The notes under the pieces were generated by a model. That model searched no databases and had not been told where the DNA came from. It was given only the letters and a program-made list of their open reading frames with translations. From Salinigranum halophilum (GTDB taxonomy: Archaea; Halobacteriota; Halobacteria; Halobacteriales; Haloferacaceae): DNA of 64,000 nt. The stretch covers positions 62,001 to 126,000 of the forward strand of contig NZ_SSNL01000009.1 in assembly GCF_007004735.1 (NCBI RefSeq). Reading direction: 5' to 3'. Shown piece by piece: positions 9,355 to 11,255 of this stretch (position 1 is the stretch's first letter; every line of letters starts with the position of its first letter). The position numbers were made by a program, and so were the translations under genes.

Positions 9355-9399
9355 CCAGAACGCTCCGCGTTCTGGTTGCCCGCCAGACGTAGTCTGGCG
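9355..9399. other. Double hairpin in the IS left end (copy 1 of 3)
   Basis: Stem 1 is 9 bp (CCAGAACGC / GCGTTCTGG) with loop TCC; then a 5-nt spacer; stem 2 is 8 bp (CGCCAGAC / GTCTGGCG) with loop GTA. The total is 45 nt. The same 9-3-9-5-8-3-8 layout occurs inside tnpB at 10648-10692 and, partly decayed, inside tnpA at 9565-9609, with different stem sequences. Confidence 0.8.
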
Positions 9400-9498
9400 A
9401 CGGGGATGAAGCCGACCAACAGTATGCAACCGCCGACGATGGCACGGACGGGGTTCCAACGCGATTTTTAACTTGTCCGACCATGATAGTATCCATAG

Positions 9499-9930
9499 AT
9501 GGTGAAGAGTACCCGTCATGCGAAATACGAACTCTATTATCACATAGTACTCGTGCCGAAATCTGGCGGAATCGAAGATTCCGCTGACCTCGCGGAACAG
9601 GGTTCCACTCAGTATCGGCGTTCGCATCTGACGGGGAAAACGAAGGAACGTCTCGAAACCATCTTCGCGGAAATCTGTGAGGACAAGTGCCTCGAACTGG
9701 CCGAGTCCGAGGTCATGCCCGACCACGTACACCTGTTCATCGGGAGTCCACCGAAGAACGGCCCGTCACTCATCGTCAACTGGGTGAAAGGCATCTCCGC
9801 CCGCAAGTACAACCAGCAGTACGACGACCGCGTGAAGTGGACTCGTTCGTACTACGTCGGTACGGCGGGTAGTGCCTCAAAGGGCGCTGTCGAACGCTAC
9901 ATCGCTGAACAGGAGGGTGACGACGAATGA
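9499..9930 (+). CDS. tnpA: IS200/IS605 TnpA (Y1 HUH transposase) with in-frame insertion
   Basis: 143 residues. This single-strand DNA transposase cuts and joins the IS ends using one tyrosine. The HUH motif is H76-V-H78 and the nucleophile is Y134 in the ERYIAEQ helix. The N-terminal strand HIVLVPK should run straight into [14 protein letters not shown]; here 17 extra residues (22-38, nucleotides 9562-9612) separate them. The extra DNA is a double hairpin like those at 9355-9399 and 10648-10692. The insertion keeps the frame but falls after the first beta strand and may impair activity. The start is ATG 9499; the stop overlaps the tnpB start. Confidence 0.9.
9565..9609. other. Double hairpin inserted in tnpA (copy 2 of 3)
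   Basis: Stem 1 pairs GCGGAATC (9566-9573) with GATTCCGC (9577-9584) around loop GAA. Stem 2 pairs GGAAC (9594-9598) with GTTCC (9602-9606) around loop AGG; its outer pairs are mismatched, consistent with decay. The segment corresponds to the 17 residues that interrupt TnpA. Confidence 0.75.
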
Positions 9931-11255
9931 AGCGTGTTAACACCTTCGAGGTCGTCCCACAGACCGAGAACGACAAAGAGTGTCTTCTACGGCTACTCGA
10001 TGCATCCACTTCTCTGTGGAACGAACTGACCTACGAACGTCGTCAGAACTACTTCGGTGACGGCGACGTGTGGGACACTTCCGAGTACCGTGGACAGTAC
10101 AACGGTGTCGTCGGAAGCGCGACCGTTCAACAGGTCACGCGCAAGAACAGCGAAGCGTGGCGGTCGTTCTTCGCCCTCAAGGAGAAAGGCGAGTACGCCA
10201 ACCCACCGTCGTACTGGGGCAACGAGGAGGACGGACGCGAACTCCGTACCTACATCCGATGCAACCAGTACACGATTGAGTGGGGCAAACGTAGCCGTCT
10301 CGAAATCCCTGTCGGACAAGAACTGAAAGACGAACACGGACTCGGCTACCACGAACGACTCCGCCTCGAAGTCCGAGGCAACCCGAAGTGGGACGGCAAA
10401 CAGGGTCGTCTGGAAGTTGAGTACGACGAGGTTAGCGACACGTTCAGGGCTTTCCAACCAGTCGCCGTACCTGATTCTCGACTGGATTCACCACTGGCTT
10501 CCGACGAAGCCGCCCTCGACGTTGGCGCGAACAATCTCGTCGCCTGTTCCACGACTACTGGAAACCAGTACCTCTACGACGGTCGGGAGTTGTTCGGACG
10601 GTTCCGCGCGACGACTGACGAAATCGCTCGCCTACAGTCGAAATTGCCCGAGAGACGCAGTCTCTCGGAATCACGGAAGACGGAGTCTTCCGGACGACTC
10701 CGAGAGGGGCGCTATAGTTCCAAACGGATTCGACGGCTGTACCGACAGCGGACGAAACGCCGTGACCACGCACAGAATGCGCTGGTGCGCGACCTCGTCG
10801 AACGGCTGTACGACGAGGGCGTGGGGACGGTGTACGTGGGCGACTTGACCGACGTGCTGGAAACGCACTGGTCGGTCAAGGTGAACGAGAAGACGCACAA
10901 CTTCTGGGCGTTCAAGAAGTTCATCCACCGTCTCGCGTGCGTCTGTGAGGAATACGGAATCGGCCTCGAAGCCGAGTCGGAAGCGTGGACGAGTCAGGCG
11001 TGTCCCGAGTGTGGCGACCACGAGGAGACGGTTCGCCACGAAGATACGCTGACGTGTCCGTGCGGTTTCGAGGGACACGCCGATCTCACGGCGTCAGAGA
11101 CGTTCCTTCGAGAAAACAGCGATTGCGAAATCAGGCCGATGGCACGGCCCGTGCGATTCGAGTGGGACGACCACAATTGGTCGGGGAAACCACACCCTCA
11201 CGAAAGTCCCAAAGAAGTGCGCACGAACCCGCAAGTTGCCTCCGTGGGTCGGTAG
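9927..11255 (+). CDS. tnpB: TnpB, RNA-guided nuclease of the IS200/IS605 element
   Basis: 442 residues. TnpB is the ancestor-type Cas12 RuvC nuclease that uses a guide RNA from the right end of its element. RuvC residues appear intact: D198 (LDVGAN), E347 (GLEAESEAW) and D385 (GHADLTASE); the zinc ribbon has C358-x2-C361 and C376-x-C378. Residues about 240-257 are an 18-residue insertion between QSKL and [14 protein letters not shown], where related proteins run continuously. The inserted 54 nt form two perfect hairpins. The C-terminal tail is normal for haloarchaeal members. The start overlaps the tnpA stop (ATGA). Confidence 0.9.
10648..10692. other. Double hairpin inserted in tnpB (copy 3 of 3)
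   Basis: Stem 1: CCGAGAGAC / GTCTCTCGG with loop GCA (9 bp); 5-nt spacer; stem 2: CGGAAGAC / GTCTTCCG with loop GGA (8 bp). It is exactly 45 nt, identical in layout to the copy in the IS left end at 9355-9399, while nearly all stem bases differ. Confidence 0.8.

Follow-up and report, generated by a model that had tools for sequence, protein, structure and literature searches.

Three double hairpins in a haloarchaeal IS200/IS605 transposon belong to a widespread family of tiny mobile elements

Small palindromic elements lodged in genes and mobile elements, such as the Rickettsia palindromic elements (RPE), the CGTC-tagged repetitive extragenic palindromic (REP) sequences and the SMR-A repeats, are described, in the accessible portions of the relevant papers, as lacking any known means of mobilisation (PMC3119063, PMC3733652). 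The SMR-A repeats of Haloquadratum walsbyi (HqIRS42, HqIRS43 and HqIRS55) are about 110 bp long and, as far as those portions of the 2011 description extend, target the near-terminal palindromes of IS605-type transposons and of PATEs, cause no duplication, are of unknown mobilisation and account for 104 of the 192 nested insertions counted there (PMC3119063). For the dimers of CGTC-tagged REPs, which include RPE-4 and RPE-6 of Rickettsia, the accessible text likewise reports no known transposase (PMC3733652). Here, we describe three double hairpins carried by one IS200/IS605 insertion sequence (IS) in a 64,000-nucleotide stretch of Salinigranum halophilum (contig NZ_SSNL01000009.1, positions 62,001 to 126,000; hereafter the window), in a host genome of 4.2 Mb. 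Together with their kin in other genomes, these features form a real and widespread family, little known so far, of tiny mobile elements that conserve shape more tightly than sequence. The likeness in style to the Rickettsia elements, pointed out in an initial annotation of the window, was upheld.

Each of the three inserts, located in the left end of the transposon, in tnpA and in tnpB, consists of two hairpins with 3-nt loops and a loop-to-loop distance of 22 nt (Table 1). Folded as single-stranded DNA (+ strand), the three copies gave z-scores of -4.9, -3.0 and -3.8, and among 200 shuffles of each, 0, 0 and 1 folded as well. A scan for two 3-nt-loop hairpins with stems of at least 6 bp and no more than 12 nt apart found four double hairpins in the window, two of them in the host IS, against a Markov-shuffle expectation of 0.175 per 64 kb. 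In twenty arbitrary 4-kb haloarchaeal stretches (80.9 kb), no pair with stems summing to at least 14 bp and loops 20-26 nt apart was present. The initial annotation had recognised two perfect double hairpins and a partly decayed one, which was confirmed where it had placed them, and had described them as a 45-nt unit with the layout 9-3-9-5-8-3-8. This layout holds for copies 1 and 3, whereas copy 2 reads 8-3-8-7-7-3-7 with the same 22-nt loop distance, and the 45 nt proved to be the core only, the insertion footprint being 51, 51 and 54 bp according to empty sites in relatives. The second hairpin of copy 2 is intact in 11 of the 14 distinct sequences matched at the tnpA site.

That these features are insertions of one architecture, absent from most of the relatives compared, was established from those empty sites, and deleting 51, 51 and 54 bp from the window IS reproduced the sequence of relatives. 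At the left end, the 54 loci listed comprised six with the window's element, five with a different double hairpin and a remainder that mostly had none, along with a few loci whose left end was unrelated; the different double hairpin of those five may sit at the same junction as the window's element, GGG|CGGGG (the bar marks the insertion point). Of 51 aligned loci, 18 carry the tnpA insert and 33 have an empty site there; for the tnpB insert, 8 of 46 aligned loci carry it and the site is empty in the other 38. Alignment of tnpA with the solved transposase structure 2EC2 left a single clean 17-residue gap, and tnpB showed a clean 18-residue gap against four insert-free relatives (94-96% identical); the extra residues are therefore not conserved parts of either protein. 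Thus, the in-frame inserts of 17 and 18 residues initially proposed, at codons 22-38 of tnpA and 240-257 of tnpB, do interrupt proteins that are continuous in relatives. The two-hairpin layout recurs in many other insertions, contrary to the outcome that the initial annotation had named as refuting its proposal.

Among all copies collected, a flank search found an empty site in the compared DNA for 103 of 237, about 12 of which are comparisons within arrays (loci L241, L243 and L247) and may be spurious. Exact placement was obtained for 88 of 225 haloarchaeal copies (loci L239-L250, which lie outside the window's class, were excluded from these counts and from the anatomy counts on 160 cores below). 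The inserts measured 54 bp in 36 cases, 51 bp in 27, 53 bp in 10 and other lengths in 15, 51 or 54 bp thus making up 63 of the 88. After merging, these represent 28 sites, or about 27, one tnpB site (L026/L204) having been counted twice. In the close pair L038/L047, 45 mismatches separate about 1800 aligned bases, yet the two differ by one clean 51-bp insert.

The covariance-model search that the initial annotation had suggested was run with a model of 13 gapless aligned examples, which fixes 3-nt loops and favours C-G closing pairs and the 22-nt distance. Matches at E <= 1e-4 were found in 145 of the 194 genomes of the window's class, distributed over 60 of 66 genera. A phylum sample had matches in 32 of its 196 genomes, six of these being labelled only 'same phylum'. 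Twenty-eight distant genomes gave no match at E <= 1e-3, with up to 150 candidates scored, which is no proof of absence. The genome searches score only some of the initial candidate hits (32 for each genome of the class search), so the counts are lower bounds, and kin with 4-5-nt loops would be missed, as both scans and model require 3-nt loops. Of the loci drawn from the model matches, L120-L148 were picked automatically and L149-L208 by hand from the top-scoring matches listed, and they lean towards the training set. Several Haloferax loci are among the carriers of double-hairpin copies, and viral contigs gave no match to one exact 27-letter subfamily pattern, a search that covers that form only. 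The genome of the window itself has nine places at E < 0.02, namely the three in the host IS, another tnpA (C8:8212), a tnpB (C3:623602), near-terminal-type palindromes at C4:512168, C5:566284 and C3:631790, and a different-looking cluster at C5:492193-492327.

Other hairpin-rich loci were recorded alongside. Loci L239-L250 (genomes G328, G222, G231, G238 and G326, labelled 'same phylum' only) contain rows of triloop hairpins at similar spacing that are AT-richer and have other spacers, with long arrays in L241 and L243. Longer GC-rich hairpin clusters in L139, L143, L147, L163 and L200, with 46-bp inserts at one site and no tnpA/tnpB match, are probably another repeat family. Similar multi-hairpin compound arrays occur in L166, L168, L174, L175 and L208, in five genomes and with no tnpA/tnpB match nearby; they would represent either a compound element or an old shared locus.

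Insertion took place at preferred, though not uniform, positions. Nine of the 28 sites allow a single placement only and hence have no repeated base; seven of them lie between G and C, against 6.1% expected (P ~1e-7), and the remaining two are C|C and T|T. Some subfamilies have ends of the form G|TC...GA|C, in which the target supplies the G, and the preceding C is present only at some sites. No consistent target duplication was found over the 28 merged sites, the ambiguous ones shifting by 1-6 bases with no fixed length. A frequent target is the loop of GCCTCGGGG-TCAAG-CCCCGAGGC, the near-terminal palindrome of IS200/IS605-type elements, which is empty in six loci (L160 and L179, and as the complement in L148, L157, L187 and L195), a seventh empty locus, L019, differing in the loop. 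It is filled at 17 places in 16 loci, mostly by 54 bp, and L179 has a 109-bp compound insert at its other palindrome. Additionally, 34 of the 60 loci with hits had tnpA, tnpB or IS-end motifs within 4 kb, 27 of them on the basis of tnpA/tnpB alone, versus none of 20 control stretches.

The same loci carry further double hairpins, at a second tnpB site (L026, L028 and L030) and a third (L023), and in L023, L168 and L181 copies are nested between the hairpins of earlier ones, with empty sites. The frame is kept in the window tnpA and tnpB and is broken, by shift or stop, in L023, L111 and L201: the L023 tnpB acquires a stop and L201 has a 52-bp insert. In another tnpB of the window's genome, the reading frame changes at an insert of about 55 bp. 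Two IS copies, L030 and L032, have inserts in the left end, in tnpA and at two places in tnpB and agree in all of 1995 bases. Their left flanks differ, each of them ending in TTAC; the four-insert IS has therefore moved at least once. A third copy, L031, likewise lies where a contig ends and could be the missing half of L030 or L032.

The anatomy of the elements was more constant than their bases. A scan of loop distances from 20 to 26 nt gave 22 nt for 96 of 150 copies; among 160 distinct cores, with the range set to 21-24 and the fetching model favouring 22, it was 22 nt in 123. Stems were mostly 7-10 bp, and in none of the 160 cores were the inner 7 bp the same in both stems. Loops read GNA or TNC in 232 of 301 hairpins, compared with 11.7% of 4-bp chance hairpins, and the closing pair was C-G in 295 of the 301, as it was in nearly all family members of a listing that preceded the model. 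GNA loops closed by G-C pairs are, according to the accessible part of one study, extraordinarily stable DNA mini-hairpins (PMC4686876). In the 13-example alignment, 95.9% of 221 cells were paired and 73 cells had changed on both sides, with none of 500 shuffles as high, and covariation reached 0.897 against 0.27 in shuffles. The initial proposal that structure and not sequence is shared holds mainly for the loops and the stem bases near them, which vary, but not for the outer stem, spacer and end sequences, which subfamilies have in common; the commonest subfamily has terminal inverted repeats of the type TCGTTCGAG...CTCGAACGA, weaker in the others.

Loops also change orientation while stems remain paired. 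A pattern with fixed outer bases and orientation matched 19 distinct copies at the near-terminal palindrome, among which seven arm combinations occurred and 18 copies were fully paired in both stems; the first loops of the 19 were 8 GNA, 8 TNC and 3 other, and their second loops 5, 8 and 6. At the tnpB site the stems were identical in all six distinct copies and the loops flip (first loops GCA, TGC, GAA and GGA; second loops GGA, TCC, GAA and TTC), TNC being read on the coding strand in one of six first loops and two of six second loops. On the coding strand of tnpA, the first loops of 14 distinct copies were 11 GNA, 1 TNC and 2 other, and at a second left-end site one orientation prevails (7 GNA and 1 other; 7 TNC and 1 other). 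Intermediates with mismatched stems exist, for example L033, L059 and L037. Unlike these per-site counts, the overall haloarchaeal ratio of 119 GNA to 113 TNC comes from loci in arbitrary orientation and is uninformative on strand preference.

Altogether, we consider it rather probable that the three window features arose by separate insertion of small, non-autonomous elements from a single mobile family, the haloarchaeal double-hairpin elements, which by inference are moved by HUH enzymes. An endonuclease working in trans, most probably of the HUH (Y1) type, would excise the hairpin pair from single-stranded DNA and reinsert it into such DNA, in parallel with the REP/BIME pairs thought to be moved by RAYTs. 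The initial annotation had likewise suggested that the elements may act on single-stranded DNA exposed during IS200/IS605 transposition. A single-strand HUH reaction is rated most likely because the elements are hairpin pairs, have no consistent duplication, insert into hairpin loops and prefer IS605 DNA. This last preference would arise because the ends of IS200/IS605 DNA become single-stranded and form hairpins themselves, making them favoured targets. Template switching within a hairpin, by which one arm is copied from the other, could restore pairing and invert the loop, and insert lengths divisible by three, which are common, would let some copies persist within genes. As a more doubtful generalisation, these elements might exemplify a class of mobile DNA recognised mainly by its shape, in which single-stranded DNA, often at G|C, receives a pair of unlike GNA-capped hairpins with loops spaced by 22 nt. 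Their tips would drift and their arms rewrite each other, so that they would evolve by covarying and flipping instead of inheriting their sequence in the ordinary way, and they would prey on IS200/IS605 and on themselves in nested arrays.

Several observations weigh against movement by an HUH enzyme at such targets. No mobilising enzyme was identified in a genome-wide search, which covered only PF01797. This Y1 transposase is present in 133 of the 194 genomes of the class, its association with the presence of elements is weak (Fisher p = 0.052), although element and Y1 numbers correlate at Spearman 0.36 with both-strand matches counted and copy numbers inflated. As 40 of the 145 carrier genomes have no Y1_Tnp match, elements can be carried by a genome that has no Y1 gene of its own, and element copies may outlast their enzyme. 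The ends of the elements are roughly inverted repeats, unlike those of IS608-type elements, and an insertion that separates strains of a single species was not observed. The two loops of one element are opposite in 61 cases and of the same orientation in 34 (of 160, related copies kept), a leaning that fits poorly with one strand carrying two GNA caps. Additionally, the G|C rule was noticed prior to testing, and it is not universal, since only 7 of the 19 ambiguous sites allow it (3.5 expected); among the window's inserts insert 1 alone is compatible with it, and neither the tnpA subfamily nor the tnpB site of the window or that of L026 is. Finally, 26 of the 60 hit loci had no IS200/IS605 feature, their copies lying elsewhere or in hosts that the motifs missed.

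Passive spread has to be weighed against repeated insertion. Following a small number of old insertions, IS200/IS605 copies could have passed the inserts on mainly by homologous recombination, so that these are now mere passengers, as might be expected from finding the same insert at the same base in scattered IS copies, with 10 changes at tnpA and 7 at tnpB on a tree of 46 rows (those more than 80% filled, other loci having been dropped), and from the near-terminal palindrome, where 16 of 17 filled sites listed share one orientation and the other (L254) holds a different element. However, about 27 distinct sites, different IS families, copies outside recognisable IS DNA and nesting, as well as the clean insert between L038 and L047, are difficult to obtain in this way; we regard recombination as an unlikely explanation of the whole, and it may add to the patchy distribution. 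We assign a smaller chance to the elements being extreme, PATE-like miniatures of IS200/IS605, in which the left and right end hairpins were joined and are moved by the parent TnpA. Such an origin would account for two hairpins, the lack of a consistent target duplication and the association with the host, and the accessible part of the Haloquadratum paper reports terminal-only PATEs of 52 bp, but by the same account such elements retain only one of the two palindromes (PMC3119063). The roughly inverted-repeat ends and the absence of a TTAC-type target also speak against it, seven of nine single-placement sites being G|C with varied preceding bases. For a miniature inverted-repeat transposable element (MITE) type of origin, no parent element was seen, none having been searched for beyond Y1.

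Selection of the pairs as RNA structures, be it for bypass in protein-coding genes, processing or termination, would make the DNA form incidental. Stems that stay paired in tnpA and tnpB, lengths of 51 and 54 that are divisible by three, and the predominance of GNA in first loops on the tnpA coding strand are in agreement with it, but the loops flip on the tnpB coding strand and stand at 8:8 and 5:8 GNA:TNC at the non-coding palindrome, and copies occur in non-coding ends or break a gene (L023, the tnpB elsewhere in the window's genome, and L201), which leaves this explanation improbable. Practically no weight remains for chance palindromes or replication-slippage expansions in GC-rich DNA. 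The long clusters L139, L143 and L200, with 46-bp inserts at one site, differ in kind and may have such an origin; for the family, the prevalent 22-nt loop distance, the unlike inner stems, discrete insert lengths, the 28 distant genomes with no match and empty sites of one size argue otherwise.

The transposon that hosts the three inserts (Table 1) shares its left end with relatives whose homology begins at 9312 and, in most of them, ends at 11306 or 11307; for its ends we assumed that the TTAC/TCAA rules of IS608 apply. Its tnpA scored 25 bits against the RAYT family (cut-off 80). In TnpB, residue 305 (10839-10841) falls in the motif VYVGDLTD, which is also read in six aligned relatives, where from TnpB structures we would expect the RuvC-II glutamate (MEDLT); D198 and D386, which we take to be the other catalytic positions, are both retained. 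As judged from the sequence, the active site may be nuclease-dead or rearranged. An Rfam scan of 9250-11400 gave no match on the inserts and two sub-threshold matches near the right end of the IS. Upstream of it, at 8940-9030, lie several near-repeats of TTGACTAAACAGT, possibly operator or promoter repeats. Elsewhere in the window, a double hairpin with GTC loops (43605-43647) and a single 13-bp hairpin with the loop CGG (26227-26255) fall outside the loop rule of the family.

Table 1. Coordinates in the window of the host transposon, its genes and the three double-hairpin inserts.
Feature	Position	Strand	Evidence or remark
Host IS200/IS605 transposon	9316..11306	+	target TTAC 9312-9315; right end TCAA 11303-11306
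Transposon left-end hairpin CGAGGC-GAAA-GCCTCG	9324..9339	+	retained in most relatives listed (sequence and left-end listing)
Insert 1, 51 bp, double hairpin in left end	9350..9400 (= 9351-9401 or 9352-9402)	+	exact empty site, 0 mismatches in 40
Insert 1, hairpin 1: 10-bp stem, loop TCC	9354..9376	+	folding, hairpin scans
Insert 1, hairpin 2: 8-bp stem, loop GTA	9381..9399	+	folding, hairpin scans
tnpA, Y1 (HUH) transposase with 17-residue insert	9499..9930	+	NF033573 137.7 bits; PF01797; structure 2EC2 alignment
Insert 2, 51 bp, double hairpin in tnpA codons 22-38, second hairpin decayed	9562..9612 (one-base shift possible)	+	
tnpB with 18-residue insert	9927..11255	+	NF040570 147.7 bits; protein alignment
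Insert 3, 54 bp, double hairpin in tnpB codons 240-257	10644..10697 (shift up to 3 bases)	+	empty sites
Insert 3, hairpin 1: 9-bp stem, loop GCA	10648..10668	+	folding, hairpin scans
Insert 3, hairpin 2: 8-bp stem, loop GGA	10674..10692	+	folding, hairpin scans
			

These elements belong to a kind already known, and their empty sites make an old question about mobility testable. An abundant family in genetically tractable organisms, for which dozens of filled sites have an empty counterpart, the ends are defined and the target rule is known in part, is open to experiments at the bench. The results also suggest that stem covariation need not mean RNA function, as arms may be corrected at the DNA level; if they are, covariation read as evidence of functional RNA becomes a trap for searches.

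Among known systems, the double-hairpin elements of Allomyces mitochondria and the mitochondrial bypass elements are also short hairpins in genes whose shape is kept rather than their sequence; they belong to eukaryotic mitochondria. The 108-nt expansion in Halococcus 5S rRNA, considered as a possible relative, forms by the accessible account an asymmetric V, composed of one hairpin and one long arm. With the GTAG-type REP/BIME and RAYT system the elements share hairpin pairs, which in that system a Y1 enzyme with a tagged hairpin as its recognition site is believed to move in trans; as far as the accessible text goes, those pairs bear a GT(A/G)G head, and RAYTs as defined by that paper's criteria were found only in gammaproteobacteria (PMC2817692). 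None of the window's inserts, and none of the listed sites, has a GTAG head at its ends. PATEs, in the accessible part of their description, resemble the double-hairpin elements in being transposase-less, palindromic, IS605-related and free of target duplication, and differ in their TnpA-type ends (PMC3119063); PATE palindromes are sites of double-hairpin inserts and not their like. Insertion 3' of a TnpA target tetranucleotide, as in IS200/IS605-type elements, was not observed, the bases before the insertion point being varied, and the host IS, unlike its inserts, itself follows TTAC.

In haloarchaea, the initial annotation knew of no described counterpart, and beyond SMR-A no description of double-hairpin elements was found in the open-licence literature. 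SMR-A and the double-hairpin elements both use near-terminal IS605-type palindromes with no target duplication and have terminal inverted repeats and many copies; they differ in length (about 110 bp versus 51-54 bp); the 109-bp compound of L179 would match the SMR-A length. In the accessible portions of the SMR-A account, by whose description alone the two were compared, double hairpins, insertions in genes and other genera go unmentioned (PMC3119063). SMR-A may thus be a compound form of the double-hairpin unit. This identity is likely but unproved, because the Haloquadratum genome G194 (reached through L036), with 27 model matches, has none of 17 loci in the CCTCGGGG palindrome, and G389, drawn around G194, has 7 of 19 loci (five places) there. 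In bacteria, the CGTC-tagged REPs and the Rickettsia palindromic elements are the nearest designs. According to the accessible text, CGTC dimers differ in loops of 4-5 nt against 3 nt in the window, spacers mostly of 20-100 bp and a 3-nt tail, with no archaeal family named, and they resemble the haloarchaeal elements in their two stem-loops, stems of 8-9 bp, a possible GTC-type tag, unlike partners in several families, occasional residence in genes and the lack of a dedicated transposase (PMC3733652).

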